Of a DNA stretch of 64,000 nt, positions 7,991 through 19,782 are shown one piece after another. The stretch lies in IMG/VR virus record IMGVR_UViG_3300036770_003657, positions 1 through 64,000 of that record. One strand, written 5' to 3'. The stretch's first letter is position 1. Every line of letters starts with the position of its first letter. This DNA is from a virus. Both the position numbers and the translations under genes were made by a program. The notes under the pieces were generated by a model, which was not told where the DNA came from, made no database searches, and was given only the letters and a program-made list of their open reading frames with translations.

Positions 7991-8981
7991 GTATCCTAGC
8001 ACAATCTAAAGCACAATAGGTCAGGATTCCATCTGCTCCAGCTCTCCTGAACGCTGTCATAATCTCCATCATGGCCTTATCATAATCTAAATACCCAGCA
8101 AGACTAGCAGCCCTTAACATAGCATACTCACCTGACACATGATACACATAGGTGGGATAATTAAAACGATCCTTTACCCTACGCACAATGTCCAAATAGG
8201 GTAACCCTGGCTTAATCATTACCATATCCGCCCCTTCATTGATATCCATTTCCACTTCCCTTAGTGCTTCATCAGTGTTGGCATAATCCATTTGATACTG
8301 CTTTTTATCTGTAGTACCCAATGCACTAGCACTGCCCACAGCACCCCTAAATGGTGCATAGAACGACGACGCATACTTGGCACTATAACTCATGATCATG
8401 GCATGCACCTTAGATCCATGCCCTGTCTCTAACATACGACGTATGTGCCCAATACGCCCATCCATCATGTCACTGGGCGCTAGGATGTCACATCCCGCTT
8501 CTACTAACACCTGACTCATTATGACTAACTGACGCACTGTGAGATCATTTTGTAAATAACCATTGAGATCTGGTATTCCATCCTGCCCATGATCAGTATA
8601 TGGATCCAATGCTACATCACAGATAATACCCAAACTGGGAAATCTCGTCTTAATATCATGTACAACTGTGGGTATGAGCCCCAATGGATTGATTGCTTCC
8701 GACCCCTCATGATCCTTCTTACTACTATCTATATAAGGGAATAAGGCTATGGCAGGTATGCCCAAGTCTACACATTCTGCACACAATATGAATAACTGGT
8801 CTGGCGTATATCTATATACTCCAGGCATGTTTGATATCTCTTCCTTTATACCTATACCCTCACGTACAAATACAGGTAATACGAGATTACGCACACTTAG
8901 ATCAGTTTCCTGTACCATACTGCGAACCCACGCACTACGACGTACTCTACGGCTACGGTGTAATGGATATTCTAAACGCAT
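7980..8981 (-). CDS. hemB: Delta-aminolevulinic acid dehydratase (porphobilinogen synthase)
   Basis: 333 residues, full family length. HemB condenses two 5-aminolevulinate molecules to porphobilinogen in tetrapyrrole (heme) synthesis. The two Schiff-base lysines are present: K202 in SYSAKYASSFY and K257 in MVMIKPGLPYL. In the metal site (residues 121-135, CDVALDPYTDHGQDG) the zinc-ligand cysteine of the DxCLxxYTxHG motif is alanine, as in magnesium-type alphaproteobacterial enzymes. The quaternary-arm N-terminus with RxRRSxWVRxM is intact. The gene stands alone on the minus strand between plus-strand operons, so it looks like an acquired host gene, and no catalytic residue is lost. Confidence 0.95.
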   Translation of the reverse strand: MRLEYPLHRSRRVRRSAWVRSMVQETDLSVRNLVLPVFVREGIGIKEEISNMPGVYRYTPDQLFILCAECVDLGIPAIALFPYIDSSKKDHEGSEAINPLGLIPTVVHDIKTRFPSLGIICDVALDPYTDHGQDGIPDLNGYLQNDLTVRQLVIMSQVLVEAGCDILAPSDMMDGRIGHIRRMLETGHGSKVHAMIMSYSAKYASSFYAPFRGAVGSASALGTTDKKQYQMDYANTDEALREVEMDINEGADMVMIKPGLPYLDIVRRVKDRFNYPTYVYHVSGEYAMLRAASLAGYLDYDKAMMEIMTAFRRAGADGILTYCALDCARILNA

Positions 8982-9010
8982 ATTAACTCCAAATTAAACT
9001 ACTATTTAAT

Positions 9011-9234
9011 GGTCTAGCTGTAGGGCCTATAAATATATACATGCCCAAATACTTCTATACCTATCACACAGCTTGGTACACACTACTCATAATCCTATTA
9101 CTTAGAATAGACTGGCTGGCTCTATTGACTCTACATATACTACTAGTATACTCAGTGATGAAGTACTAATGGTCTAGCTGTGGGTATTAAGCCTAGCACA
9201 CTACACACACTATATACAATAAAGGTCTAGCTGT
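9011..9234 (+). repeat. Three copies of the 11-mer GGTCTAGCTGT
   Basis: Exact copies at 9011-9021, 9171-9181 and 9224-9234, with a fourth at 4237-4247 inside a promoter spacer. The second and third are followed by GGGTAT. Each precedes a small gene or an AT-rich TATA-like hexamer 13-17 bases from the start of the box. It may be a middle-promoter activator box; that is inference. Confidence 0.6.
9041..9169 (+). CDS. Small membrane protein, 42 aa
   Basis: Two hydrophobic stretches (YTLLIILLLRIDWLALLTL and HILLVYSV) in a 42-codon frame. No Shine-Dalgarno is visible; the frame begins shortly after a TATAAATA sequence. It lies between two copies of the 11-mer box. Moderate support. Confidence 0.45.
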   Translation: MPKYFYTYHTAWYTLLIILLLRIDWLALLTLHILLVYSVMKY

Positions 9235-9259
9235 GGGTATACGCACTAGGAGAATACTT

Positions 9260-9403
9260 ATGGAACTCTGGCTTATAATAATGATTATTACGGCTATAAT
9301 AGCACTACTGGGCATCATGGCTACTTGGACCAGCTATACTATAGATCGAATAGAACAAGAACAAGATGGCCAACCCTATAAACACTGGAGAGAACTACTA
9401 TGA
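9260..9403 (+). CDS. Small membrane protein, 47 aa
   Basis: AGGAG precedes the ATG at good distance. Residues 3-25 are a transmembrane helix (LWLIIMIITAIIALLGIMA) and the rest is polar (IEQEQDGQPYKHWRELL). ATGA-coupled to the next gene. Confidence 0.6.
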   Translation: MELWLIIMIITAIIALLGIMATWTSYTIDRIEQEQDGQPYKHWRELL

Positions 9404-9525
9404 TGAACAATGACGAAATATTTGGTGTGATCATTTTTGTTGGCTTGATTTGGCTGATTTTAACAACTGTGAAATTGAGTGGTACAAAGAACGACGATGA
9501 ATTTAAGAGCACTAAAAAGGATTGA
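9400..9525 (+). CDS. Small membrane protein, 41 aa
   Basis: One hydrophobic helix (IFGVIIFVGLIWLILTTV) then a charged tail. Coupled to the previous gene by ATGATG. Its TGA stop lies inside the -35 hexamer of the next promoter. Confidence 0.55.
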   Translation: MMNNDEIFGVIIFVGLIWLILTTVKLSGTKNDDEFKSTKKD

Positions 9526-9550
9526 CAACTGACCAGAAACCATGTATTAT
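9522..9550 (+). promoter_or_regulatory. Sigma70-type promoter
   Basis: TTGACA (9522-9527), 17-bp spacer, TATTAT (9545-9550); the gene at 9582 follows with AGGACG as ribosome site. Confidence 0.7.
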
Positions 9551-9581
9551 ATACACACTTAACACACACATAGGACGCAAA

Positions 9582-9728
9582 ATGAACCAATATTTTACTT
9601 GGATACTGATCAAGAGCACAAGCCAACATGTCAAAGTCTATTGTATGGCTGAAAACATAGATCAGGCCAATGCCATGTTTAGAGCGCAATACGGTAGGCA
9701 GATACTACACGGCGCGGCTCCAGTCTAA
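9582..9728 (+). CDS. Hypothetical protein, 48 aa
   Basis: Begins MNQYFTWILIKSTSQHVKVY and looks like a small beta-alpha-beta domain (ENIDQANAMFRAQYG helix). Its promoter and ribosome site support it. No known function. Confidence 0.6.
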   Translation: MNQYFTWILIKSTSQHVKVYCMAENIDQANAMFRAQYGRQILHGAAPV

Positions 9729-9872
9729 TGAGAAGATATATAGGCTGGGTAGGGTCTACACAATGAACACGATATACAGAATGAGTATTTTTGCATAGTG
9801 GCCCGAGACCTCCCTCCACTCTTTTCTAACCCTGTTACCACCGTAGAAACCACCCTGTCTTAGACGTCAAAA

Positions 9873-9924
9873 CCAAAAAAAGGTTGCACTTTTTCACACT
9901 TTTTCACACTTTTCTACACCTTTT
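9873..9924. other. Helically phased A/T-tracts (probable bent DNA)
   Basis: T-tracts start at 9890, 9900, 9910 and 9921, spaced 10, 10 and 11 bases apart, after an A-tract at about 9874-9881. The repeated unit is CACACTTTTT. Phased tracts of this kind bend DNA and often flank origins or promoters. Confidence 0.55.
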
Positions 9925-9943
9925 AGACCGATAAATACCCAGC

Positions 9944-10025
9944 GACAGGCCTTGTAACCTGTCCAGGAGGCATCCCAGCCCTGGAAATTCACGCGGCAGC
10001 ATAGCACCGTTTGGCATACTGGGAT
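9944..10025 (+). ncRNA. Candidate structured RNA element
   Basis: GACAGG (9944-9949) pairs with CCTGTC (9958-9963), and ATCCCAG (9972-9978) pairs with CTGGGAT (10019-10025), enclosing about 40 bases. A GATAAATA sequence (9930-9937), similar to T4-type late promoters, lies just upstream. Whether it is transcribed is unknown. Confidence 0.35.
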
Positions 10026-10107
10026 TCAAAAACCAAATCTACCCCCTGTTATAGAAAGATTAACGAATCCTCCTGTCAACCAAAACCATAATCCCGTCCA
10101 GGTTATT

Positions 10108-10164
10108 CGTTGTATAAGAACAACAGGTGTTGTGATTTCACTACAGTGTTGTATAAGAGCAACA
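10108..10164. promoter_or_regulatory. Two TGTTGT-N6-ACAACA operator-like boxes
   Basis: Boxes at 10108-10125 (CGTTGT-N6-ACAACA) and 10147-10164 (TGTTGT-N6-GCAACA), both with ATAAGA as the N6 and followed by GGTGTTGTGA, so a unit of about 28 bases is directly repeated 39 bases apart. Confidence 0.5.
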
Positions 10165-10279
10165 GGTGTTGTGAAAGAGCCACAGGCGAGTGCGGCGGCG
10201 GTGTGGCGGAAATACAACAGAATCTTGTGGATTTTTCGTTTTCAAATTCCAATATAGATAGTATAATGAACGCCTAGAC

Positions 10280-10297
10280 TGTTGTATTATTACAACA
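10280..10297. promoter_or_regulatory. Palindromic operator-like box
   Basis: TGTTGTATTATTACAACA is a perfect inverted repeat (7-bp arms, 4-base centre). It ends exactly 14 bases before the -35 hexamer of the promoter at 10312. Confidence 0.6.
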
Positions 10298-10311
10298 AAT
10301 ACCCCTACAGT

Positions 10312-10340
10312 TTGACAGGTCTTTAGAGCTGTACTATAAT
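10312..10340 (+). promoter_or_regulatory. Early promoter, TTGACAGGTCTTT family
   Basis: TTGACA (10312-10317), 17-bp spacer starting GGTCTTTAGAGC, TATAAT (10335-10340). No gene intervenes before the next promoter at 10444, so the two act in tandem or the short transcript contains the palindromes at 10386-10424. Confidence 0.8.
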
Positions 10341-10385
10341 AGAGACATGCTAGTAAAAAACGACACAAAAAAAACGACACAGTCG

Positions 10386-10424
10386 TGTTGTATACATACG
10401 ACACTGTGTTGTACACTAGCAACG
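10386..10424. promoter_or_regulatory. Two degenerate TGTTGT-N6-ACAACA boxes
   Basis: TGTTGT-ATACAT-ACGACA (10386-10403) and TGTTGT-ACACTA-GCAACG (10407-10424), offset by 21 bases, i.e. two helical turns, just upstream of the promoter at 10444. Confidence 0.5.
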
Positions 10425-10443
10425 ACGTTAAAGACCCTACAGA

Positions 10444-10472
10444 TTGACAGGTCTTTGGACCCAGTGTATAAT
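10444..10472 (+). promoter_or_regulatory. Early promoter, TTGACAGGTCTTT family
   Basis: TTGACA (10444-10449), 17-bp spacer, TATAAT (10467-10472), leader AAAGGAGCGAAG before the ATG at 10501. Confidence 0.85.
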
Positions 10473-10500
10473 GCTTTTATTGTAAACAAAAGGAGCGAAG

Positions 10501-10797
10501 ATGCAAAATTCATTAAGCGCAGACTATTCAGCAGAATTTGAGCTTATGTACAATGAGAGCATAGAAGTAGACGTAGACGATATTGCACATGAGCTCACTG
10601 TTCGCTTTGAGCAAGAGTTCGCAGACTACTTAAGGGGCTGTGACAGTGAAGACGTAGGTGCTGTTATTATATACAGACGTGGAGGAGAAGAAGTTGCGTT
10701 CTTTGACTATGAGAACATGCACGGTAGCGTCTATGAGCTAGGACACAAAAGAGCCAGCGAGACTAGCATAGAGTGGGCAGAACGTGTGGGACTATAA
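10501..10797 (+). CDS. Acidic hypothetical protein, 98 aa
   Basis: Rich in Asp and Glu (VDVDDIAHELTVRFEQEFADYL), probably a mixed alpha/beta domain. Single gene between two early promoters with a GGAGCGAAG ribosome site. Small acidic early phage proteins often inhibit host enzymes or mimic DNA, but nothing specific is visible. Confidence 0.75.
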   Translation: MQNSLSADYSAEFELMYNESIEVDVDDIAHELTVRFEQEFADYLRGCDSEDVGAVIIYRRGGEEVAFFDYENMHGSVYELGHKRASETSIEWAERVGL

Positions 10798-10809
10798 AGA
10801 CCTGACAAC

Positions 10810-10838
10810 TTGACAGGTCTTTAGAAGGCCTGTATAAT
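10810..10838 (+). promoter_or_regulatory. Early promoter, TTGACAGGTCTTT family
   Basis: TTGACA (10810-10815), 17-bp spacer GGTCTTTAGAAGGCCTG, TATAAT (10833-10838). The spacer is identical to that of the promoters at 11109 and 16805. Confidence 0.85.
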
Positions 10839-10868
10839 GCTTGTATTGTAAACAAAAGGAGCGAAGAA

Positions 10869-11099
10869 ATGCGTGGACCCAATATGTCATATTGTATGTG
10901 CGAGAACACTCTGCTGGCCTTGCACCAAGTCATAGCAGCAATGAAAGAAGAAGGCCCTATGTTCTTAAACGATCTTAGCCGTAGTGAGCGGGAGAGCTTT
11001 GAAGAGCTGTTTAATGCTTGTGAGACCTTTGTAAACCATGCGGATGAGTTGATTGCGGGTGAGGAGGAGTTGGAACTTAGCCCCTATGAGGACGAATAA
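10869..11099 (+). CDS. Acidic hypothetical protein, 76 aa
   Basis: Helical, acidic C-terminus (ELIAGEEELELSPYEDE). ATG preceded by GGAGCGAAGAA; an internal ATG at residue 6 is possible. Monocistronic early gene of unknown function. Confidence 0.7.
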   Translation: MRGPNMSYCMCENTLLALHQVIAAMKEEGPMFLNDLSRSERESFEELFNACETFVNHADELIAGEEELELSPYEDE

Positions 11100-11108
11100 C
11101 CTTATAGG

Positions 11109-11137
11109 TTGACAGGTCTTTAGAAGGCCTGTATAAT
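11109..11137 (+). promoter_or_regulatory. Early promoter, TTGACAGGTCTTT family
   Basis: TTGACA (11109-11114), 17-bp spacer, TATAAT (11132-11137). Its leader carries GGAGCGAAT (11158-11166), the exact complement of the hairpin loops at 13796 and 13823. Heads a six-gene operon. Confidence 0.85.
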
Positions 11138-11166
11138 ATGGGTATAGTAGATAACAAGGAGCGAAT

Positions 11167-11319
11167 ATGAAGTATGCTTGTTGGAGTGTAGTAGGTGGAT
11201 GGGTCACAGCCCTTGTCAATGGTGAGGGTGAGGTCAATGAGTTCATTGGCCCTGTGTTTAATAGTATAACAGATCTTTGGAAGTGGCAGCGTGCTAACCT
11301 TTACGGGGAGATGGCATAA
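11167..11319 (+). CDS. Hypothetical protein, 50 aa
   Basis: Begins MKYACWSVVGGWVTALVNGE and ends NLYGEMA. The ATG directly follows GGAGCGAAT; the stop shares a base with the next ATG (TAATG). First gene of the operon. Confidence 0.65.
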   Translation: MKYACWSVVGGWVTALVNGEGEVNEFIGPVFNSITDLWKWQRANLYGEMA

Positions 11320-11504
11320 TGGTTAGGGTAATCACTAACAGTTTGGGCAGTGGAGATTGGGTCATTGTGCAGGCGGGCTCAGAGACCTTGCACGAAGGAC
11401 ATAGAGTTGCTGCTATTGATCTTGTAATGATCCTACAGAATTTGGGCATACACTCAGAGCTTGTTGAGTGTAAAGACAGCGAAATGGAAGATGGAGCATA
11501 CTAA
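11319..11504 (+). CDS. Hypothetical protein, 61 aa
   Basis: Small alpha/beta protein (GDWVIVQAGSETLHEGHRVA, then AIDLVMILQNLGIHSELVEC). Start overlaps the preceding stop. No recognised family. Confidence 0.65.
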   Translation: MVRVITNSLGSGDWVIVQAGSETLHEGHRVAAIDLVMILQNLGIHSELVECKDSEMEDGAY

Positions 11505-11505
11505 A

Positions 11506-11745
11506 ATGGTATTGGCAGAAGACATTGAAATCCTTAGCACATTCACCGCAGCAGACTTGACTGAGGGTATTAGGCTCAGTGGCTATAAGGGTGATAGGTT
11601 TATAACGGCCAAGTTCTTAGGCATCACTAACAGTGGCCAGTTCTGCTATAGTGTAACTTATAAGGCTCTGGACCAGTGCATAGAGCGCACTAAGGTCTTT
11701 GTAGACGTAGACCCAGAGACGGGTGCAACTAGAGTGGATTATTAA
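11506..11745 (+). CDS. Hypothetical protein, 79 aa
   Basis: Beta-rich small protein (GDRFITAKFLGITNSGQFCY, VFVDVDPETGATRVDY). The ATG at 11506 is chosen because it follows the previous stop by one base; an upstream in-frame TTG lies inside that gene. Confidence 0.65.
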   Translation: MVLAEDIEILSTFTAADLTEGIRLSGYKGDRFITAKFLGITNSGQFCYSVTYKALDQCIERTKVFVDVDPETGATRVDY

Positions 11746-11746
11746 G

Positions 11747-11893
11747 ATGGATACAGAACTTGTAGAGTTGATTGAAAAGGTCATAGAGCAGATCAAATGG
11801 GACTTTGAGTTGGGACAGACAGAGGACTTGGAGATCCTACTAGCCCAATGCCCTAAAGAATACTTGAGAGATTACTTGCCCGAAGGAGAGTGA
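11747..11893 (+). CDS. Acidic helical protein, 48 aa
   Basis: Starts one base after the preceding stop and encodes an acidic helical protein (MDTELVELIEKVIEQIKWDF). Supported by operon position and GGAGAG before the next gene. Confidence 0.6.
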   Translation: MDTELVELIEKVIEQIKWDFELGQTEDLEILLAQCPKEYLRDYLPEGE

Positions 11894-11894
11894 T

Positions 11895-12065
11895 ATGGAG
11901 TTCCTACAAAGAGCAGAACGGTATGCTGAGGCCCGTGGAGATGACATGTTTTTTAAATGGGTATACTCAAACCACAGGGAATATAACGATGTCGCCGATT
12001 CGGTGTGGAAGACACTGAGTTATCTTTATGGCAATCAGGTGGCAGACCTGTTGGAATTTCAATAA
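11895..12065 (+). CDS. Hypothetical protein, 56 aa
   Basis: Fifty-six codons (MEFLQRAERYAEARGDDMFF start), with AAGGAGAG upstream, in the same operon. Helical; no known family. Confidence 0.6.
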   Translation: MEFLQRAERYAEARGDDMFFKWVYSNHREYNDVADSVWKTLSYLYGNQVADLLEFQ

Positions 12066-12078
12066 TTAGGAGAGCGAG

Positions 12079-12231
12079 ATGAGTGGAGTCCTACATAGAG
12101 TAGACGTAGTGGTCAGTCTGTGGATTGATGAGGACGCAGACCCTACGTGGGTAGTGCAGGAGATGGACTATGAGTTCCGTCACCCTGACATCAAAGAAAC
12201 AGAAATTAGGGATGTCATCACAGAGTTCTAA
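12079..12231 (+). CDS. Hypothetical protein, 50 aa
   Basis: Preceded by AGGAGAGCGAG. Contains VDVVVSLWIDEDADPTWVVQ, a pattern typical of small beta proteins, and ends DVITEF. Last gene before the next promoter. Confidence 0.6.
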   Translation: MSGVLHRVDVVVSLWIDEDADPTWVVQEMDYEFRHPDIKETEIRDVITEF

Positions 12232-12243
12232 AGACCACATAGG

Positions 12244-12272
12244 TTGACAGGTCTTTGGAGCGGTGCTATAAT
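12244..12272 (+). promoter_or_regulatory. Early promoter, TTGACAGGTCTTT family
   Basis: TTGACA (12244-12249), 17-bp spacer, TATAAT (12267-12272); leader AAGGAGCAAAG. Confidence 0.85.
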
Positions 12273-12301
12273 ATGAACATACTGTTAAACAAGGAGCAAA
12301 G

Positions 12302-12703
12302 ATGGGAACTAGAGCGCTAACTTTTGTATACGATGAGCGGGGCAATGCCGTAGTCAACCTCTATCGCCAGTTTGATGGCTACATAGCGGGACACGGAGCA
12401 GAACTTGCTGAGTTCCTCAATGGGCTCACACTGGTCAATGGCTTTGGTCGTGAGGAAAAGGGCATTGCTAATGGTATGGGCTGTTTGGCTGCTCAAATGA
12501 TTGCTCACTTCAAAGATAGTGTAGGTGGCTTTTATATCCACGCAGTCACAGAAAAGGACTGTGGTCAGGACTATGAATACCATGTATACCGGGACAGAGT
12601 TGAGGTGTTAGGTCCAGGCAGCATATTCAATCCAGGACCCAATGACCTAGTGTTCAAAGGCACTTGGGCTGAGTTCGCAGAGCATTGCAAGGTCTCAGCA
12701 TAA
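12302..12703 (+). CDS. Conserved phage protein (MGTRALTFVYDE type), 133 aa
   Basis: MGTRALTFVYDERG followed by NLYRQFDGYIAGHGAELAEFL is a signature I recognise from a widespread phage and bacterial hypothetical family. It reads as a small alpha/beta domain with GHG in the middle. No catalytic activity is established to my knowledge. First gene of a two-gene unit. Confidence 0.75.
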   Translation: MGTRALTFVYDERGNAVVNLYRQFDGYIAGHGAELAEFLNGLTLVNGFGREEKGIANGMGCLAAQMIAHFKDSVGGFYIHAVTEKDCGQDYEYHVYRDRVEVLGPGSIFNPGPNDLVFKGTWAEFAEHCKVSA

Positions 12704-12867
12704 TGGAGATCTACAGAGATGAAACTGGTAGGTACTATGCTTTTGACCCGCAGACGTGTCAACTATGCGCTCTGGAGTCAACAGGCTACACAGATGCGCA
12801 GGAGGAGGCAGATACTGTTTATGGAACGAAGGACTTTGTCGAACTTGTTGACAACTCGCAAGAGTGA
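12703..12867 (+). CDS. Hypothetical protein, 54 aa
   Basis: Starts in TAATG overlap with the preceding stop. MEIYRDETGRYYAFDPQTCQ suggests a small beta hairpin domain; the C-terminal codons contain the -35 of the next promoter. Confidence 0.6.
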   Translation: MEIYRDETGRYYAFDPQTCQLCALESTGYTDAQEEADTVYGTKDFVELVDNSQE

Positions 12868-12876
12868 CTATATAAT
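12848..12876 (+). promoter_or_regulatory. Sigma70-type promoter of the AAA ATPase gene
   Basis: TTGACA (12848-12853), 17-bp spacer, TATAAT (12871-12876), but the spacer differs from the GGTCTTT family. The leader ends in GGAGCGAAC. Confidence 0.75.
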
Positions 12877-12906
12877 TAGTGCTTAATTAATACATAGGAG
12901 CGAACT

Positions 12907-13779
12907 ATGCCAAAGATGATCAACGCACAAGAACTTATGACCAAACCCACAACCTCCAGCTTTGAACTAGAGCCCACCCGCAAAGTACTAAACGAGACAG
13001 ATGACGAGATCATTGATCGCTTACGTGAACGCTTTAGTATCTTAGACGACATGACCCGTGCTGTAAAGAAGGGTGATGTACGTGCAATGATTGTTAGTGG
13101 TCCTCCAGGAGTAGGCAAGAGCTATGGAGTAGAGCGAGTGCTGAGTAGACACGATGTGTTCGCCGATGTAGCACAGGATGAAAAGCTTAAGAAGTATGAG
13201 GTAGTCAAAGGTGCTATGAGTGCCATTGGTCTGTACAAGAAATTGTACGAGTTCAGTGCTAAGAAGAACATCCTTGTGTTCGATGACTGCGACAGTGTAT
13301 TGTTGGATGATCTCAGTTTAAATATCCTTAAGGCTGCACTAGATTCTAGCGCCAAACGTACTATTCATTGGAACACGGATAGCCGCAGCCTACAGAATGA
13401 AGGAGTGCCCAACAAGTTTGAGTTCAAAGGTGGTGCCATCTTCATCACCAACATCAAATTTGAAAACGTTAGGTCAAAGAAGTTGCGTGACCACTTAGAA
13501 GCATTGGAGAGTCGTTGCCATTACTTGGATCTCACTATTGACACTGACAGAGAGAAATTATTACGTATTAGGCAAGTCACGCAAGATCACAACCTTTTTG
13601 AAGTAAATGGCTTTGAGTTTAAGGACTATGAGAAAGATGAGGTCATTGACTTCATTGATGAGAACAAGCATAAGATGCGTGAGATGAGCTTGCGTATGGT
13701 AATCAAAGTGGCAAGCTTGAAGGCCTCTATGCCCAACTGGAAGAGAGTAGCAGCCCTAACCTGCATGAAAAGAGTATAA
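12907..13779 (+). CDS. AAA-type ATPase, 290 aa
   Basis: Walker A GPPGVGKS at residues 65-72 and Walker B ILVFDDCD at 122-129; a likely sensor-1 region follows (GAIFITNI near residue 180) and an arginine-rich stretch RSKKLRDHLEALESRC near 190-205. This is the core of an AAA+ P-loop ATPase of about 290 residues, a type common in T4-like marine phages without assigned role. It could load or remodel a replication or packaging component. It is the largest protein of the early array, has its own promoter, and its 3' UTR holds two identical-loop hairpins that match its own leader (GGAGCGAA). Confidence 0.85.
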   Translation: MPKMINAQELMTKPTTSSFELEPTRKVLNETDDEIIDRLRERFSILDDMTRAVKKGDVRAMIVSGPPGVGKSYGVERVLSRHDVFADVAQDEKLKKYEVVKGAMSAIGLYKKLYEFSAKKNILVFDDCDSVLLDDLSLNILKAALDSSAKRTIHWNTDSRSLQNEGVPNKFEFKGGAIFITNIKFENVRSKKLRDHLEALESRCHYLDLTIDTDREKLLRIRQVTQDHNLFEVNGFEFKDYEKDEVIDFIDENKHKMREMSLRMVIKVASLKASMPNWKRVAALTCMKRV

Positions 13780-13786
13780 TCCCCGT

Positions 13787-13846
13787 AAAAACCTGATTCG
13801 CTCCCAGGTTTTTAGCCCCCCGATTCGCTCCCGGGGGGATTTTTTT
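13787..13846 (+). ncRNA. Tandem hairpins with identical anti-Shine-Dalgarno loops; terminator
   Basis: Hairpin 1: stem AAAAACCTG (13787-13795)/CAGGTTTTT (13805-13813), loop ATTCGCTCC (13796-13804). Hairpin 2: stem CCCCCCG (13816-13822)/CGGGGGG (13832-13838), loop ATTCGCTCC (13823-13831), followed by seven T. The stems are unrelated but the 9-nt loops are identical and are the reverse complement of GGAGCGAAT, the early-gene leader (exact at 11158-11166; eight of nine at 10492, 10858, 12897 and 16853). Hairpin 2 is an excellent intrinsic terminator. I infer a 3'-UTR-derived regulatory RNA as well as a terminator. Confidence 0.75.
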
Positions 13847-13849
13847 GAC

Positions 13850-13867
13850 TGTTGTACGTGTACAACG
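13850..13867. promoter_or_regulatory. Palindromic operator-like box
   Basis: TGTTGT-ACGTGT-ACAACG (7-bp perfect arms GTTGTAC/GTACAAC). It ends exactly 14 bases before the -35 at 13882. Confidence 0.6.
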
Positions 13868-13881
13868 AAAGACCCTACAGG

Positions 13882-13910
13882 TTGACAGGTCTTTGCTTTG
13901 GAGCTATAAT
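13882..13910 (+). promoter_or_regulatory. Early promoter, TTGACAGGTCTTT family
   Basis: TTGACA (13882-13887), 17-bp spacer, TATAAT (13905-13910), leader AAGGAGCAAAAA. Confidence 0.85.
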
Positions 13911-13940
13911 GTGAACATACTGTTAAACAAGGAGCAAAAA

Positions 13941-14195
13941 ATGGGAATGTGGACTACGGAGAATCAGGACACTATGAAAGATGTGCTTAAGGCCTTCAAC
14001 GATGCTGCTTATGCTAACTATGGCAATCACTCTTATGCTGCTGGCTACTTGGAGAGCCTTGTTGTAGAGATGCTGGCTCACTGTCCCAAGCGGTATCAGA
14101 AGAGCTTGATACAGAGCATGATTGGTGTAACGCAACGGCAAGAGAAGGAGGCCATTGCCAAGATGAACAAGGTAGTCAATACCCACATAGGTTGA
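13941..14195 (+). CDS. Hypothetical protein, 84 aa
   Basis: MGMWTTENQDTMKDVLKAFN start, then a helical domain. The ATG follows GGAGCAAAAA. The TGA stop (14193-14195) lies inside the TTGACA of the next promoter. Function unknown. Confidence 0.7.
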   Translation: MGMWTTENQDTMKDVLKAFNDAAYANYGNHSYAAGYLESLVVEMLAHCPKRYQKSLIQSMIGVTQRQEKEAIAKMNKVVNTHIG

Positions 14196-14220
14196 CAGGT
14201 CTTTGGATCGGTTGTATAAT
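14192..14220 (+). promoter_or_regulatory. Early promoter, TTGACAGGTCTTT family
   Basis: TTGACA (14192-14197), 17-bp spacer, TATAAT (14215-14220), within the conserved context ACCCACATAGG upstream and AACAACAAGGAGCAGCAA downstream. Confidence 0.85.
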
Positions 14221-14250
14221 ATGGTTATAGTAAACAACAAGGAGCAGCAA

Positions 14251-14445
14251 ATGGGTTGGATAAAGAATGGAGAGCATGTAAAGGCAGTATACATGGGCCA
14301 ACCCATTGAGGGCCGTGTTGAGGACAGCCGTGTCAAGTATGGTGGACGAGTGCAATATACAGTGGAGTTAACGCAGCCAATCCAATTGCGTTGGAGAACT
14401 GAGCAGACAACCCGTGTGCTCATTGAAGATCGAGATTTAGTATAA
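14251..14445 (+). CDS. Hypothetical protein, 64 aa
   Basis: Reads as a small beta-barrel (HVKAVYMGQPIEGRVEDSRV, GRVQYTVELTQPIQLRW), reminiscent of SH3-like or KOW-like folds. ATG at 14251 is placed by GGAGCAGCAA. First of a unit of about six small genes. Confidence 0.65.
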   Translation: MGWIKNGEHVKAVYMGQPIEGRVEDSRVKYGGRVQYTVELTQPIQLRWRTEQTTRVLIEDRDLV

Positions 14446-14455
14446 GGAGCCTATT

Positions 14456-14653
14456 ATGTGGACCAAACAAGATAGCTATCGTAGCCGTCGTTATACTTGC
14501 GAACTCTTAAGCCTTGTGGAAGACGACATGATCGACAAGGACACGTTGATTAGGGACTTATTAGGCTATTTGAGTGAGAGTGAAGTAGCGGACTTTGTTC
14601 GTAAGAATGACTTAATGCCCTGGCTCTACAATGAGGACAATGAAGATGAGTAG
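14456..14653 (+). CDS. Hypothetical protein, 65 aa
   Basis: TAAGGAGC precedes the ATG. Helical protein (TLIRDLLGYLSESEVADFVR) with an acidic tail (NEDNEDE). Function unknown. Confidence 0.65.
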   Translation: MWTKQDSYRSRRYTCELLSLVEDDMIDKDTLIRDLLGYLSESEVADFVRKNDLMPWLYNEDNEDE

Positions 14654-14819
14654 AATGAGTGACTTAGATATAGAAATGCAGGAGATGTTAGAGCGTGGAG
14701 TAGGTATAGATGATGTTGCTGCCTACTTCAATGTACCCGTTGAGTGGGTATGGCAAGCTCATGCCAATCTTCTACAGAGCTTGGCTGACCTGTGGTTTGA
14801 CAACGTAGAAACTAACTAA
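14646..14819 (+). CDS. Small helix-turn-helix-like protein, 57 aa
   Basis: Overlaps the preceding gene by 8 bases. GVGIDDVAAYFNVPVEWVWQ resembles a helix-turn-helix (helix, turn, recognition helix with aliphatic spacing). Possible DNA-binding protein or antirepressor; too short for confidence. Confidence 0.55.
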   Translation: MSRMSDLDIEMQEMLERGVGIDDVAAYFNVPVEWVWQAHANLLQSLADLWFDNVETN

Positions 14820-14828
14820 GGAATAGAT

Positions 14829-15356
14829 ATGCCTAATTGGTGCTCAAACAAATTAACTCTCAGACACAAGCAGCCAGACCGATTGGAAGCGGCCATAGAT
14901 GCCTTCAAGGAGGGTAAGTTCTTAGAACACTTTGTTGCCTTACCCAATGGTCAATGGAACTATGACTTCTGTGTCTCCAACTGGGGAACTAAGTGGGATG
15001 TCAGTGGAGATGACAGAGATGTGGTGGTAGAACCAGATTCAGTGATCTTCTACTTTGACAGTGCGTGGAGTCCACCCTCTGAAGCATACAGAGCAATGGC
15101 AGCACAAGGCTTTGAAGTAGAGGCCCTGTACAATGAGCCAGGCATGTGCTTTGTAGGCAAGATCATAGCCGATGAGGATGGCTTTGACGATCTCTACTAC
15201 GAATATGGTAGTGAGGATTCAAACACGGTGAGACTCCTCATTGGAGAAGAACTTGATGACTACTATGGCATCAGCGAGTTTATGGAACAGATGGAAGTGG
15301 AAAGACTAGAGAACGAATTAGACGAGATCATCAACGAGGAGAATAAAGATGAGTAA
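14829..15356 (+). CDS. YubB/Api92-like ferredoxin-fold protein, 175 aa
   Basis: MPNWCSNKLTL at the N-terminus followed by a FDSAWSPPSEAYRAMA segment is characteristic of the phage/plasmid family with a ferredoxin-like domain in Api92-like proteins (DUF1281-type). The first 120 residues form the domain; the last 60 are acidic and helical. Function is not established for the family. AAGGAATAG lies upstream. Confidence 0.7.
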   Translation: MPNWCSNKLTLRHKQPDRLEAAIDAFKEGKFLEHFVALPNGQWNYDFCVSNWGTKWDVSGDDRDVVVEPDSVIFYFDSAWSPPSEAYRAMAAQGFEVEALYNEPGMCFVGKIIADEDGFDDLYYEYGSEDSNTVRLLIGEELDDYYGISEFMEQMEVERLENELDEIINEENKDE

Positions 15357-15516
15357 GGTCTTTGATTTTGTAGTGGAAGCAGCTCTACGTAGGGCTCCTG
15401 TGTGCAAGGTCTGTGAGCTGCCCACGAGTGCGGCTGTTGTAAATGGACAACGGTTGACGGCCAAACAATTGGCAAAATTCAACAAGGCAAGGCTTGACAA
15501 GGCAACGAAACGGTAG
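15349..15516 (+). CDS. Small basic protein with a CxxC pair, 55 aa
   Basis: Overlaps the end of the preceding gene (ATGAGTAA). MSKVFDFVVEAALRRAPVCK and VCEL give a single CxxC, and the C-terminus is basic and helical (KFNKARLDKATKR). The last codons contain the next promoter's -35. Confidence 0.55.
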   Translation: MSKVFDFVVEAALRRAPVCKVCELPTSAAVVNGQRLTAKQLAKFNKARLDKATKR

Positions 15517-15522
15517 TATTAT
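15494..15522 (+). promoter_or_regulatory. Sigma70-type promoter
   Basis: TTGACA (15494-15499), 17-bp spacer, TATTAT (15517-15522). The spacer is not of the GGTCTTT type. Drives the gene at 15575. Confidence 0.75.
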
Positions 15523-15574
15523 ACGATTATGCACTAATGCATATCAACTCTGTTAAATACGAAAGGCAAATATT

Positions 15575-15958
15575 ATGGCAACTGAAAAATTATTCACTGT
15601 AGCAGGCATCAGCAAGCTTCCTTCAACCCACGGCAGCGAGTACAAGGTACGCTTTGCCAATGACGTCATGCGTGTCAAAGTCCTACTCAAAGGTGGACAC
15701 GAAGATGTGCGTCTTGTAGAACTTGATGCTCCTAGTACTAAGATGGAGGCTGTACAAATCCTCAAAGGTATGGATGAGTTTAGCGATGTCATCGCACAGG
15801 CTACCCTCAATGACTTCATTGAGGAGAATACTCCAAAGGCACCTCGTGAGAAGGCAGTTAAGGCACCTAAGATCAAGCCTGAGTCAACTCCTACTGCCAC
15901 TAAGGCACCTAAGGCCAAGATTGAGATGCCCACTGACATGGAGGATGCTCCCTTCTAA
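15575..15958 (+). CDS. Phage protein with an SSB-like acidic C-terminal tip, 127 aa
   Basis: Residues 1-85 form a compact domain (KLFTVAGISKLPSTHGSEYK, VRVKVLLKGGHEDVRLVELD); residues 86-115 are a Lys/Pro/Ala linker; the end is PTDMEDAPF. Domain, flexible linker, and acidic tip ending in proline-phenylalanine is the layout of bacterial SSB (DDDIPF) and its partner-binding tail. I infer a nucleic-acid-associated protein that recruits partners; the N-terminal domain is not a recognisable OB-fold. AAGGCAAATATT lies before the ATG. Confidence 0.7.
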   Translation: MATEKLFTVAGISKLPSTHGSEYKVRFANDVMRVKVLLKGGHEDVRLVELDAPSTKMEAVQILKGMDEFSDVIAQATLNDFIEENTPKAPREKAVKAPKIKPESTPTATKAPKAKIEMPTDMEDAPF

Positions 15959-16148
15959 TGAGCTGGGAATTGTACGAAGTAATGGCCACAGATGATCGTG
16001 GCCATGAGTCACTCTACTATGCTACAAAGAGCTTGAAAGAGGCTAAGGCTATGGCCCAACAGGCTCTACGTGAAGGTATGGTGAGTTGCGTAGTGAATAG
16101 AGAGACTGAAGACGGAGACAGTGAGTGCGTCTTCGAGTGTAAATCATA

Positions 16149-16149
<1 letters not shown>
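15958..16149 (+). CDS. Hypothetical protein, 63 aa
   Basis: TAATG-coupled to the previous gene. MSWELYEVMATDDRGHESLY, then a helix with SLKEAKAMAQQALREG: a small beta-alpha domain common among phage early proteins. Its last stop base is the first base of the tRNA that follows. Confidence 0.65.
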
Positions 16150-16227
<78 letters not shown>

Positions 16228-16243
16228 ACTACAAAGGTAACAT

Positions 16244-16522
16244 ATGGCAAGTAAACTGGACAAGTATCTTAGACCCACAGTGATCTTTGATGTACAGAAT
16301 CCTGAACATAGACAACACTATTTCAACTTCCTAGACACTAGAACTTGGAGTGCCTGTCCCTATCAGTTCATCACAGGCAATAGAGATGACAGCCCAATCT
16401 TGACTGTGGCCATAGAGCATCAATTGCTCAAATATTACAGGGACGCTGACAGAGCCTTGGCCAAGAAGGGTCACAATCTCATAGAAGTGGCCATGCGTGT
16501 GGTGGATGAGGAGCATGTCTAG
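16244..16522 (+). CDS. Hypothetical protein, 92 aa
   Basis: AAAGGTAAC precedes the ATG. Reads YLRPTVIFDVQNPEHRQHYF and SACPYQFITGNRDDSPILTV: a small alpha/beta protein. Unknown function; co-transcribed with the upstream tRNA. Confidence 0.7.
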   Translation: MASKLDKYLRPTVIFDVQNPEHRQHYFNFLDTRTWSACPYQFITGNRDDSPILTVAIEHQLLKYYRDADRALAKKGHNLIEVAMRVVDEEHV

Positions 16523-16524
16523 AC

Positions 16525-16542
16525 TGTTGTTTACGTACAACA
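16525..16542. promoter_or_regulatory. Palindromic operator-like box
   Basis: TGTTGT-TTACGT-ACAACA with 6-bp perfect arms. It ends exactly 14 bases before the -35 at 16557. Confidence 0.6.
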
Positions 16543-16556
16543 AATACCCACACAAG

Positions 16557-16585
16557 TTGACAGGACTTTAGAGCTCGCGTATAAT
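16557..16585 (+). promoter_or_regulatory. Early promoter, TTGACAGG family
   Basis: TTGACA (16557-16562), 17-bp spacer GGACTTTAGAGCTCGCG, TATAAT (16580-16585). Confidence 0.85.
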
Positions 16586-16618
16586 TGCTTTATTAGTTAA
16601 ACAACACAGGGCAATTAA

Positions 16619-16792
16619 ATGCAAAAAGTATATAATTTGTTTTTTTATAACGACAGCAACGAGCGTGAGCACTGGGGTACATACGGCACAAAAGTGGCTG
16701 CTGAGCGGGCCATTGTAGAGACGCAAGAGGAGTTTGGCAGTGACATTTTTGCAACAGAACAGTTTAGCATAGAGACTAGCACAGTAGCATAA
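16619..16792 (+). CDS. Hypothetical protein, 57 aa
   Basis: MQKVYNLFFYNDSNEREHWG followed by a helix (TKVAAERAIVETQEEFG). Preceded by ACAGGGCAATTAA and an early promoter. A small phage early protein of unknown role. Confidence 0.65.
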   Translation: MQKVYNLFFYNDSNEREHWGTYGTKVAAERAIVETQEEFGSDIFATEQFSIETSTVA

Positions 16793-16804
16793 TACCCACA
16801 GAGG

Positions 16805-16833
16805 TTGACAGGTCTTTAGAAGGCCTGTATAAT
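16805..16833 (+). promoter_or_regulatory. Early promoter, TTGACAGGTCTTT family
   Basis: TTGACA (16805-16810), 17-bp spacer, TATAAT (16828-16833); leader GGAGCGAAAA. Confidence 0.85.
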
Positions 16834-16862
16834 GCTTGTATAGTAAACAAAAGGAGCGAAAA

Positions 16863-17066
16863 ATGGGATTTGAAAAGCGTGTTATAGAAGTGGTCAGAAC
16901 TGTTACAGACGCAGAAGCACATTTCTATGAGGGTTCACTGTTCCTGCATACAGCAGACAGAGACATAGCAGTGCTGGTCTACAATGCCCTGCGTAAAAGG
17001 GTAACAGGCAGGCTGGCATTTGGTCCTGCAGGCGAATTTGAAACTGTATACGATTTTTTAGCATAA
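16863..17066 (+). CDS. Hypothetical protein, 67 aa
   Basis: A small ferredoxin-like pattern: EKRVIEVVRTVTDAEAHFYE, then ADRDIAVLVYNALRKRV and GEFETVYDFLA. The start is placed by GGAGCGAA. Heads a unit of three genes plus two tRNAs. Confidence 0.65.
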   Translation: MGFEKRVIEVVRTVTDAEAHFYEGSLFLHTADRDIAVLVYNALRKRVTGRLAFGPAGEFETVYDFLA

Positions 17067-17075
17067 GGACTAGAC

Positions 17076-17396
17076 ATGTTAAAATTACATAAGGTAGAAC
17101 AGTTAGAGGATATGATTACTATACGCTTTGACTGTGACTTTTTTGTAACAATGGCTGGAGACGGCTTGTGGGGCTGTGAGGCTGGACGCAAGGTGCGAGT
17201 GTTCACCATAGATGTTAACATAAGAGACAATATGCGAGTTGAGGTCAATGTGGGACACGACAGCAATTGGGATATCTATACTGATACGGCTTTTGAGCGA
17301 GCAATCAGTGATAGGTTAGGCATCCCAGTAGGCTTTACAGAACAGGGTATGCAGGACGACGAGATGGCTAGTATGGAGGCTAAGGTATGCGTATAG
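17076..17396 (+). CDS. Hypothetical protein, 106 aa
   Basis: Beta-rich (MITIRFDCDFFVTMAGDGLW; RVFTIDVNIRDNMRVEVNVG) with a helical C-terminal part containing ERAISDRLGIP. Short AAGGAC before the ATG. Function unknown. Confidence 0.7.
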   Translation: MLKLHKVEQLEDMITIRFDCDFFVTMAGDGLWGCEAGRKVRVFTIDVNIRDNMRVEVNVGHDSNWDIYTDTAFERAISDRLGIPVGFTEQGMQDDEMASMEAKVCV

Positions 17397-17623
17397 TACA
17401 TGACTATGGACTGGTTAGGGTTGTGAGCTTGGGAGACCCATTTGCTAACACCTACGATATCCGTTGTGAAGTTTATGACGAGGCAGCAGACATTTGGAGG
17501 CTATGGCATGGCTTTAACAGCCTAAGCGATGACTATGCCTACACCAATGCTCGTGAGGCTGCTGGTCGTGCTATAAAGGAGTTGGCCCGACTAAAGGCAG
17601 AGGCACTCGTAGGCGCTAAATAA
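17387..17623 (+). CDS. Hypothetical protein, 78 aa
   Basis: Overlaps the preceding gene by 10 bases. LVRVVSLGDPFANTYDIRCE then a helix (NAREAAGRAIKELARLKAEA). Followed by two tRNA genes on the same strand. Confidence 0.65.
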   Translation: MRIVHDYGLVRVVSLGDPFANTYDIRCEVYDEAADIWRLWHGFNSLSDDYAYTNAREAAGRAIKELARLKAEALVGAK

Positions 17624-17630
17624 CATCCAA

Positions 17631-17715
17631 GCTCCAATGGCGTAATAGGTAGCCGCACGGGACTTAAAATCCCGGGTCGAGAGGCGTCCCGGTTCGAGTC
17701 CGGGTTGGAGCACCA
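17631..17715 (+). tRNA. tRNA-Leu (anticodon TAA)
   Basis: Acceptor GCTCCAA/TTGGAGC, anticodon stem CGGGA/TCCCG with loop CTTAAAA, long variable arm typical of tRNA-Leu, T loop TTCGAGT, encoded CCA. Reads UUA, a codon favoured in AT-rich phage genes. Confidence 0.95.
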
Positions 17716-17718
17716 AAT

Positions 17719-17793
17719 ACCACCGTCGTTCAACGGATAGGACAGGAGTCTTCTAAACTCTAAATGGGGGTTCGATTCCCTCCGGTGGTGCCA
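17719..17793 (+). tRNA. tRNA-Arg (anticodon TCT)
   Basis: Acceptor ACCACCG/CGGTGGT, D stem GTTC/GGAC, anticodon stem GGAGT/ACTCT with loop CTTCTAA, T loop TTCGATT, encoded CCA. Reads AGA, frequent in the AT-rich structural genes of this phage. Confidence 0.94.
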
Positions 17794-17811
17794 TACAACA
17801 AAGGACAAGAC

Positions 17812-18051
17812 ATGGGTTGGGTTGTATACACAGAACAACATGGACAGATCATCAGGTACTATAAGACATCTGGACCAGCCAAGAGGTTGGTGAACCAGCA
17901 CAATAGACTGGTGGACCAGCGTGGTTTCAGCTGGTCCAAGGGTAAGGTGGCCTGCTGCCCTTTCCCACAGTTCGAAGGTGTGCTCTTGGGCCTACGAGGA
18001 GAAGAACTAAAGATGTGGCAATTTTTCAACAGTAAGGGAATACCCACATAG
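17812..18051 (+). CDS. Hypothetical protein, 79 aa
   Basis: MGWVVYTEQHGQIIRYYKTS start; the ATG at 17812 follows AAAGGACAAGAC. Basic middle (SWSKGKVACCPF). Its TAG stop is the TAG of the conserved CACATAGG context just before the next promoter. Confidence 0.65.
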   Translation: MGWVVYTEQHGQIIRYYKTSGPAKRLVNQHNRLVDQRGFSWSKGKVACCPFPQFEGVLLGLRGEELKMWQFFNSKGIPT

Positions 18052-18052
18052 G

Positions 18053-18081
18053 TTGACAGGTCTTTGCTTTGATACTATAAT
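18053..18081 (+). promoter_or_regulatory. Early promoter, TTGACAGGTCTTT family
   Basis: TTGACA (18053-18058), 17-bp spacer, TATAAT (18076-18081). Confidence 0.85.
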
Positions 18082-18111
18082 ATCTCTATAGTAAACAACA
18101 AGGAGCAGCAA

Positions 18112-18303
18112 ATGGGCTACAAGGTACTAGGCAAGTTTGAAGATGTTATGCAAGGCTTTGGCCCACGCAAAGGTCTAGAAGGTCCCTTCAACTTTAACGG
18201 CCGTGTGTTGTATTACGACAACAAGGAAGGCAAGTACTACGACCCACGTACTGACTTCTATGTCAGTTACGATGAGTGGTTCCAATTAGCAGGTCTTAAG
18301 TAA
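18112..18303 (+). CDS. Hypothetical protein, 63 aa
   Basis: Aromatic-rich small protein (GRVLYYDNKEGKYYDPRTDF, then YDEWFQLAG). Preceded by GGAGCAGCAA. Unknown function. Confidence 0.65.
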   Translation: MGYKVLGKFEDVMQGFGPRKGLEGPFNFNGRVLYYDNKEGKYYDPRTDFYVSYDEWFQLAGLK

Positions 18304-18313
18304 GGAGATTGAC

Positions 18314-18487
18314 ATGATTGAGCGTAATCTAAATGCAGCGGGTCGGAGAGCCAATGTGCTGTTCGGCTTTGTTGAGGTGGTAGACGGCTTGGTCAGAGTA
18401 TTGAGCTTGGGCTTCCTCCACACCCGCCTGTGCCTAATCGTTACCCGTTGGCAAGTCCGTCGGGCTTTCCAAAACCGTAGAGGTTGA
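18314..18487 (+). CDS. Small basic amphipathic protein, 57 aa
   Basis: Preceded by AAGGAGATTGAC. Contains a hydrophobic stretch (NVLFGFVEVVDGLVRVLSLG) and a basic C-terminus (RWQVRRAFQNRRG); it may be membrane-associated. The TGA stop lies inside the next TTGACA. Confidence 0.6.
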   Translation: MIERNLNAAGRRANVLFGFVEVVDGLVRVLSLGFLHTRLCLIVTRWQVRRAFQNRRG

Positions 18488-18512
18488 CACTAGCACCGAA
18501 AGGTGCTATACT
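18484..18512 (+). promoter_or_regulatory. Early promoter, variant spacer
   Basis: TTGACA (18484-18489), 17-bp spacer CTAGCACCGAAAGGTGC, TATACT (18507-18512). The spacer itself is an inverted repeat (AGCACC/GGTGCT), unlike the other members. Confidence 0.8.
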
Positions 18513-18542
18513 ATGGTTACAGTGAACAACAAGGAGCGGCAA

Positions 18543-18713
18543 ATGGATCAAGCAATCTACGTTATAGAAGGTGTTGGTGAGTACGGCTTGGACCTGGATC
18601 ACAGCCCAGGAGTTGGCGGCTACTATGTCAAACTCTACGATGGATCCTACGATGCCAGTGGCTTTGACACTGAACGAGAAGCACGAGAAGAACTGGAGTA
18701 CCTAACCCAATGA
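18543..18713 (+). CDS. Hypothetical protein, 56 aa
   Basis: MDQAIYVIEGVGEYGLDLDH, then a helix (DTEREAREELEYLTQ): a small beta-alpha fold. Start placed by GGAGCGGCAA. Confidence 0.65.
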   Translation: MDQAIYVIEGVGEYGLDLDHSPGVGGYYVKLYDGSYDASGFDTEREAREELEYLTQ

Positions 18714-18880
18714 ACACCGAGGAGCAGGAGATCTCTTACTATGTGGTCATAGAGCACGAGGGCGAAACTGCTCGCTTAGAGTGTGCTAGCCTTGAAGAAG
18801 CACAGCGGGTAAGGCAAAGTTTTGTCAACTGGGGTGGCTACCAATCTGTTGAGATTCTCAGCAAAGACCCTACAGGTTGA
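18710..18880 (+). CDS. Hypothetical protein, 56 aa
   Basis: ATGA-coupled to the previous gene. EISYYVVIEHEGETARLECA, then LEEAQRVRQSFVNW, a layout similar to its neighbour. The TGA stop is inside the next TTGACA. Confidence 0.6.
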   Translation: MNTEEQEISYYVVIEHEGETARLECASLEEAQRVRQSFVNWGGYQSVEILSKDPTG

Positions 18881-18905
18881 CAGGGTATTCAAACGGTGCT
18901 ATACT
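18877..18905 (+). promoter_or_regulatory. Early promoter, TTGACAGGGTATT variant
   Basis: TTGACA (18877-18882), 17-bp spacer GGGTATTCAAACGGTGC, TATACT (18900-18905); a similar variant recurs at 20928. Confidence 0.85.
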
Positions 18906-18935
18906 ATGGTTACAGTGAACAACAAGGAGCAAGAA

Positions 18936-19160
18936 ATGAACGAAAGAATCCGAGAACTTGCTGAACAGGCTGAATGGCGATTTGCCGACCGAGCAACAGG
19001 TAATTTTTCCGAATATGATCAACGATTAGAAAAGTTCGCCGAGTTGATTGTACGGAATTGTATTGTAGACTTTTACAGAAATTACCTAGATACCACTAGT
19101 GATGAAGATATCACCAAGCAGGTTGATAGATATGTAAAACAACAATTTGGAGTTGAATAA
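18936..19160 (+). CDS. Small phage protein, KFAELIVRECA family (copy 6)
   Basis: Seventy-four residues: MNERIRELAEQA identical to copy 3, core KFAELIVRNCIVDFY, end QFGVE. It is 16 kb from the other members and sits behind an early promoter with leader GGAGCAAGAA, so the family spread with or between promoter cassettes. Confidence 0.8.
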   Translation: MNERIRELAEQAEWRFADRATGNFSEYDQRLEKFAELIVRNCIVDFYRNYLDTTSDEDITKQVDRYVKQQFGVE

Positions 19161-19169
19161 CCCTACAGG

Positions 19170-19198
19170 TTGACAGGTCTTTGGAACGGCACTATAAT
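19170..19198 (+). promoter_or_regulatory. Early promoter, TTGACAGGTCTTT family
   Basis: TTGACA (19170-19175), 17-bp spacer, TATAAT (19193-19198); leader AAAGGAGCGATAG. Confidence 0.85.
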
Positions 19199-19227
19199 AG
19201 ACACATAGTAAACAAAAGGAGCGATAG

Positions 19228-19344
19228 ATGAGCAAGTTGGATAGAGTGTTAGATGAACTGTTTTGGTTGGCTCTTTTTGCCATCCCCCCAGTGTTCGTTG
19301 TAACCTGTGTGAGTGGTATTGTTTACGGCCTGTTGTTTAGGTAA
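19228..19344 (+). CDS. Small membrane protein, 38 aa
   Basis: MSKLDRVLDELFWLALFAIP and VFVVTCVSGIVYGLLF: one long or two short transmembrane helices. Supported by its private promoter and GGAGCGATAG ribosome site. Confidence 0.65.
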   Translation: MSKLDRVLDELFWLALFAIPPVFVVTCVSGIVYGLLFR

Positions 19345-19356
19345 TACCCACATAGG

Positions 19357-19385
19357 TTGACAGGTCTTTGGAACGGTTGTATAAT
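19357..19385 (+). promoter_or_regulatory. Early promoter, TTGACAGGTCTTT family
   Basis: TTGACA (19357-19362), 17-bp spacer, TATAAT (19380-19385). The leader to the next ATG is unusually long (about 80 bases) and holds a degraded GGGGCGAAC ribosome-site remnant at about 19408, suggesting an insertion or loss of a small gene. Confidence 0.85.
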
Positions 19386-19472
19386 ATGGTTATAGTAAGC
19401 AAGCAGGGGCGAACAGACAAATTGCTTAGGCAGATGACCCCTGTGGACTTACCCAACATTTAGGAGCAACAA

Positions 19473-19772
19473 ATGGCCAAACTTATGATCCAGACCCAAG
19501 TACTTGAAAACTACGGCACTGAGTTCCGTCCACGCTGGAAAGCCAAAGGAGGCGACGACTATGTGGTACCCAACTTCACCCAATTCAATGACATCCACGC
19601 CGCTATCGATAGCATCAGGCAGCAGATTGAGACCGATAACAGTTTCTACCAGGAGTACATCGTTGACTGGTACGTGGCTGAGGACAACGAACTCACTAAG
19701 TGGGAACAACAGCAACTCGATCTCGACGGCAGGATCATCTACCCGGCAAAAGAGCTGGTGGCTGTAGCCTAA
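19473..19772 (+). CDS. Hypothetical protein, 99 aa
   Basis: Contains YGTEFRPRWKAKGGDDYVVP, then a helix and WYVAEDNELTKWEQQQ. I have seen this MAKLMIQTQVLENYG-type opening in phage proteins of unknown function. TAGGAGCAACAA lies before the ATG. Confidence 0.7.
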   Translation: MAKLMIQTQVLENYGTEFRPRWKAKGGDDYVVPNFTQFNDIHAAIDSIRQQIETDNSFYQEYIVDWYVAEDNELTKWEQQQLDLDGRIIYPAKELVAVA

Positions 19773-19782
19773 GGAGCAGACA

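Follow-up and report, generated by a model that had tools for sequence, protein, structure and literature searches.

How do large T4-like phages in which RegA is not detected time the expression of their genes? T4 RegA is a protein that acts at the ribosome sites of early phage genes to repress their translation (review PMC3014915). RegA (PF01818) was not detected in the phage considered here (G000) or in two related phages, G005 and G011 (records that may be incomplete); the T4 control gave an E-value of 2.3e-75. The question is raised by a locus in the window, by which we mean the whole stretch of 64,000 nucleotides that was analyzed (bases 1-64000 of a virus record 399,796 bases in length). 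The phage belongs to a family of large, freshwater phages that carry hairpins at the 3' end of an early gene. We consider it likely that a multi-hairpin RNA derived from this 3'UTR pairs with, and probably blocks, the ribosome sites of a regulon marked by the leader sequence GGAGCGAA, made up of promoter-proximal early genes plus a small number of late ones.

Other genes were seen in passing. The phage carries three genes for haem synthesis, each with a Pfam E-value of 1e-116 or better: those for ALAD (hemB), coproporphyrinogen III oxidase (hemF), and ferrochelatase. They are located at 7980-8981 (-) and 21812-22684 (-) of the window and at 13247-14329 (-) of L015, or ~293-294 kb of the record. 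Four successive genes of similar size at 4592-7747 (+) of the window encode related proteins starting LFYHIHS, IFYHIYTS, LYYHVYTS, and IYYHIYTS, the first of which had no Pfam match.

Two Hairpins with One Loop in the 3'UTR of an Early Gene

An early sigma70-type promoter (TTGACA-17-TATAAT; 12848..12876, +) drives transcription of a gene (12907..13779, +) for an nrdC.10-like AAA ATPase, which matches phrog_1250 (E 1.1e-77) and, weakly, AAA families. The 3'UTR of this gene contains two hairpins (13786-13838). Hairpin 1 (13786..13814, +) has the stem (T)AAAAACCTG/CAGGTTTTT(A), with arms at 13787-13795 and 13805-13813 and the loop ATTCGCTCC at 13796-13804, and hairpin 2 (13816..13838, +) has the stem CCCCCCG/CGGGGGG, with arms at 13816-13822 and 13832-13838 and the same loop at 13823-13831. 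Both 9-nt loops are unpaired in the predicted fold (-21.0 kcal/mol for the two hairpins jointly). The seven-pair stem of hairpin 2 is followed by an A and a T7 run (13840..13846, +), which makes it an intrinsic terminator of the U-rich-tail kind found in Hfq-type 3'UTR-derived sRNAs and places the predicted 3' end of the RNA at the T7 run. The original prediction had described tandem hairpins with unrelated stems and an identical loop, in a 3'UTR and ending in a terminator, and this description was confirmed.

When Rfam 15 covariance models were run on the window, tRNAs alone reached threshold and the element had no match; a search of the relatives in E-value mode likewise gave no credible match at the elements. 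A reading at the level of DNA, as a site for a DNA-binding protein, was set aside because the motif coincides exactly with the loop of an RNA structure, paired and conserved, on a single strand.

The Loops Are Complementary to Early Leaders

An array of small early genes occupies 10444-20956 (+) of the window, with a near-identical promoter (TTGACAGGTCTTT..TATAAT) before each. Early leaders are short, the ATG lying ~22-24 nt beyond the inferred start. The leader of the gene at 11167, GGAGCGAAT (11158..11166, +), is the exact 9-nt complement of the loops (predicted duplex -15.5 kcal/mol), and GGAGCGAA, which matches eight of the nine positions, is found at 10492..10499, 10858..10865, and 16853..16860 (all +) and in the leader of the ATPase gene itself (12897..12904, +), a possible feedback site. 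These are the leader matches that had been predicted. The accompanying statement that GGAGC matches almost every leader was slightly too strong: in a scan of 9.5-22 kb, 14 of 20 early-promoter leaders contained GGAGC and five contained GGAGCGAA.

At 10492 the predicted 8-bp loop duplex has an energy of -14.1 kcal/mol, as compared to -8.4 for pairing with the 16S anti-SD. More generally, by a simple calculation that leaves out the cost of opening the loop, loop-leader duplexes reach -14 to -15.5 kcal/mol and leader-16S duplexes -6.5 to -8.4. GGAGCAA leaders reach just -9.6 kcal/mol with the loop, an example being GGAGCAAA at 12294..12301 (+), where pairing is limited to the GGAGC core. Because the loop-leader duplex is the stronger of the two and covers the ribosome site, repression is the likely outcome.

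By count alone, near-matches in the window do not stand out (10, versus 5.9 +/- 2.6 in shuffles); what is unusual is their position in leaders. Across the whole phage, GGAGCGAA is the commonest 8-mer starting GGAG among the leaders and occurs 14 times (three for the reversed-string control), two of these being the hairpins and 11 being leaders. Of the leaders, five are early and lie in the window, three follow TAAATA late-type promoters, and the remaining three are clustered at 331-333 kb. These 11 are only a small part of the ~200 GGAG leaders of the phage.

Some Late Leaders Match the Hairpin Apex at Greater Length

Leaders with a match of 11-15 nt to the hairpin apex were found ahead of late genes, repeatedly csgF. 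The sequence GGGAGCGAATC precedes genes with TAAATA promoters, again repeatedly csgF, and occurs once outside the hairpins in each of G000, G005, and G011, where the downstream genes encode a secreted repeat protein, a DUF4337 protein, and CsgF. The site in G000 (299826-299836) has a predicted duplex energy of -20.8 kcal/mol, and the DUF4337-protein gene has a second site, GGAGCGAATC, which is its own SD. The csgF genes of L235, L254, and L255 have a 15-nt complement of the apex, the apex itself having been the search pattern. GGAGCGAA also stands before a curlin-repeat gene in G011 and a holin-like gene in G005.

Could restraint of late genes be the main job of the RNA? An RNA made early would then bind tightly to the late leaders of csgF, holin-like, and secreted-protein genes, with the weaker early GGAGCGAA leaders being secondary. 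The single long-match late leader in each of the three phages is in keeping with this idea, as is the presence of a TAAATA promoter ahead of 10 of the long-complementarity sites found, versus 101/1144 GGAG leaders in general. The apex, however, was in part the search pattern that led to the 15-mer sites, many of the records (which are fragments) have no such site, and early leaders are far greater in number. We therefore regard this explanation as improbable. Late genes whose leaders have the longer complementarity (csgF, holin-like genes, and others) are candidate targets besides the early genes.

Tandem sites of the GGAGCGAA type were observed before late genes in L193 (G005:278913 and 278953), L255 (4012), L301 (9735), and G011 (31053 and 31071). 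In each pair, one site does not serve as SD for the annotated frame; the second site in L301 is AAGAGCGAA, and the non-SD site in G011 may serve a six-codon upstream frame. Phage-borne curli genes (CsgF and curlin repeat) were seen behind late-type promoters in L508 (G011; 8920-14490), L254, L255, and L235. Curli genes are reportedly also known in pelagimyophages.

The Loop Is Conserved on Unrelated Stems

Relatives of the ATPase were gathered by protein sequence alone. Nearly all class A relatives have one or two hairpins with this loop immediately 3' of the ATPase gene, on stems that vary between phages. In class B the loop comes later in the operon, in the 3'UTR of another gene ~800 nt downstream, beside a terminator hairpin, and is followed by an early promoter and, in most, by a GGAGCG-type gene as well. 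Class C contigs have two or three loops in tandem, and the elements of relatives overall contain one to five hairpins. The window has the same order, with the next early promoter (13882..13910, +) immediately 3' of the terminator, as do class A, class B, and the related phage G021 (see below).

The pattern TTCGCTCC was found 109 times downstream of the protein-selected ATPase genes on the gene strand, and the 10-mer ATTCGCTCCC 26 times in 20 full records of related phages; the reversed strings were found in neither case. Exact copies of the apex are mostly noncoding and in GGAGCGA phages (85/109), as opposed to 10/120, 12/53, and 4/52 for one-base or shortened variants. In 42 non-redundant hairpins from protein-selected loci, the arms of the same hairpin paired with a mean energy of -14.9 kcal/mol and swapped arms with -8.0 (p 2e-17). 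Stem sequences are thus unrelated between hairpins, yet each is internally paired, and there is almost no information in the flanks outside the closing pairs (the search seed there being TTCGCTCC). Retention of the loop on such stems upholds the proposal that selection acts on the loop.

Hairpins and leaders also occur together. Among 72 protein-selected ATPase loci, TTCGCTCC hairpins are downstream in 54 of the 56 with GGAGCGA leaders, versus 4 of the 16 others (Fisher 9e-9), an association that could reflect shared ancestry of leader and loop within the phage family; the hairpin label requires only 3 changes on the ATPase tree. In several early gene families of GGAGCGA phages, 74-100% of members carry GGAGCGA, while for others the count is 0/33 or 0/36; the orthologues of GGAGCGA-leader early genes in GGAGCA phages have different leader extensions.

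The element had no match in related DNA of sequenced isolate phages, among which the nearest ATPase, from PA5oct-like phages, is 47% identical. In bacterial genomes the matches listed for the apex pattern were scattered across unrelated phyla, as chance predicts, and were discarded.

Loop and Leader Changed Together in One Lineage

Comparison of sequences indicates that loop and leader are changed together in G021, a single case, reached through a one-base variant of the apex after several variants had been scanned. Its leaders include GGAGCAAA (10 times), GGAGCATA, GGAGCACA, and others, and its five candidate hairpins, in two 3'UTRs, all contain TTGCTCC. Two of these are in tandem immediately 3' of the ATPase gene, as in the window, the second being a terminator whose entire loop is TTGCTCC. 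For two of the five, those at 4382 and 6523, part of TTGCTCC is paired in the minimum-energy fold, and the motif is therefore not fully in the loop. Relatives with hairpins but unrelated loops would have spoken against the original prediction; the loop was instead kept or, in G021, changed along with the leader.

Elsewhere the correspondence is looser. L153 and L148 also have TTGCTCC loops, and their leaders are mostly GGAGCA; G007 has TCGCTCC loops despite mostly GGAGCA leaders; and GGAGCA phages such as L158 and L164 retain the GCTCC core alone. In G010 the leaders are uniformly GGAGAAAC, yet a GTTTCTCC hairpin is lacking, and a de novo search of its loops for leader complements found none. 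Among ~75 additional ATPase genes related to that of G021, no more clear CTCC-loop hairpins with a uniform leader were seen. One lineage thus shows the paired change clearly, two more suggest it, and others lack it.

Two candidates were rejected: matches to CCCGTCGCTCCCGGG, which were nearly all coding or otherwise due to chance (G007 excepted), and a second complementarity in GGAGCA phages, between a GUAGUGU loop and ACACUAU(G), seen in 11/249 leaders versus 11/1121 and in three phages only. GGAGCA phages share a further 3'UTR element, in which GCTCC adjoins a terminator and a hairpin, GGG-GGUAGUGU-CCC, that is conserved (L152 ~4184, L157 ~4341, L164 ~4939, L151 ~5246, L163 ~2339, and others); a search for its targets found none that was convincing.

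The relatives bear on whether the loops act only in cis, pairing with the leader at the 5' end of the transcript that carries them to control ATPase translation or mRNA stability and affecting no other genes. The ATPase leader is itself GGAGCGA in the window and in many relatives, and the feedback on the ATPase gene that had been suggested keeps a possible site at 12897. Feedback alone, however, does not explain class B, whose elements sit in the 3'UTR of another gene, or L028, L030, and L031, whose ATPase leaders are GGAACAC, yet whose ATTCGCTCC loops are intact, or G021, where the ATPase leader is GGAGCATA, whereas the loops fit the GGAGCAAA of other genes; we judge an exclusively cis action to be quite unlikely. 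Just as doubtful is the idea that a phage or host RNA-binding protein reads the loop AUUCGCUCC and that leader complementarity is incidental or secondary, for although a G-C-closed 9-nt loop with recurrent flanks such as UAA(A/G)NCCG resembles a protein recognition element, such a site predicts neither the match to the phage's own leaders, nor the co-occurrence, nor the paired change in G021.

A Model for Action at Ribosome Sites

We return to the preferred reading, an RNA that acts on the leaders of the GGAGCGAA regulon. The 3' end of the ATPase transcript would carry, or be processed into, a short terminator-ended RNA displaying two AUUCGCUCC loops (one to five in relatives). These would pair with the extended Shine-Dalgarno sequence GGAGCGAA on a set of phage mRNAs, those of promoter-proximal early genes, often of the ATPase gene itself, and of a few late genes, covering the ribosome site and so repressing translation. 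The predicted pairing of loop and leader is strongly supported by the sequence comparisons; what we infer is the existence of the RNA as a molecule in its own right, its repressive effect, and its timing. An RNA of the early phase that blocks early genes requires an argument about timing. The early-made RNA would probably accumulate and then turn early genes off or hold selected late ones back, and it may do both.

The loops of the CcsR/cuckoo RNAs have an anti-SD-like sequence. The phage element resembles these RNAs in being a set of tandem 3'UTR hairpins with a terminator; CcsR1-4/cuckoo RNAs lie in the 3'UTRs of protein genes in Rhodobacter and other alphaproteobacteria and end in a Rho-independent terminator (PMC8307010, PMC10253847). 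Unlike them it is phage-borne rather than cellular; its loop is AUUCGCUCC rather than CUYCUCCC, with CUCC(C) alone in common; the upstream gene encodes an AAA ATPase (phrog_1250) rather than a DUF1127 protein (CcaF1); and the complement of the loop is an extended leader specific to the phage. The c4 antisense RNA of phages P1 and P7 acts on the phage's own mRNA near a ribosome-binding site through complementary sequences that are probably in loops (PMC12197685), and the loops described here are likewise complementary to a phage ribosome-binding site. But c4 controls one gene (ant), whereas here the site is common to a set of leaders, one loop recurs on several hairpins, and the RNA would derive from a 3'UTR. 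The element would work like the CcsR/cuckoo or c4 RNAs and is apparently a member of neither group; the comparison with CcsR-type RNAs made originally therefore holds for the mode of working and not for membership, the loop motif and the DUF1127 gene both being absent.

RegA is a protein and the phage element is RNA; repression of early genes at ribosome sites would be the same outcome. A broader proposal, which we offer tentatively as possible but somewhat short of probable, is that an RNA-based translation code takes the place of RegA: an address in the SD region would mark the regulon, a multi-loop RNA from an early 3'UTR would read the address, with the effect that early genes are turned off and chosen late ones (curli secretion, holin) postponed, and address and reader would have diverged jointly between lineages. 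If the reading of the element is correct, it is an RNA regulator whose targets are legible straight from the phage genome, and the matched change of loop and leader in G021 would make the regulation testable through compensatory mutation. The hairpins would then represent a phage-wide RNA family new to Rfam and linked to phage-borne curli genes.
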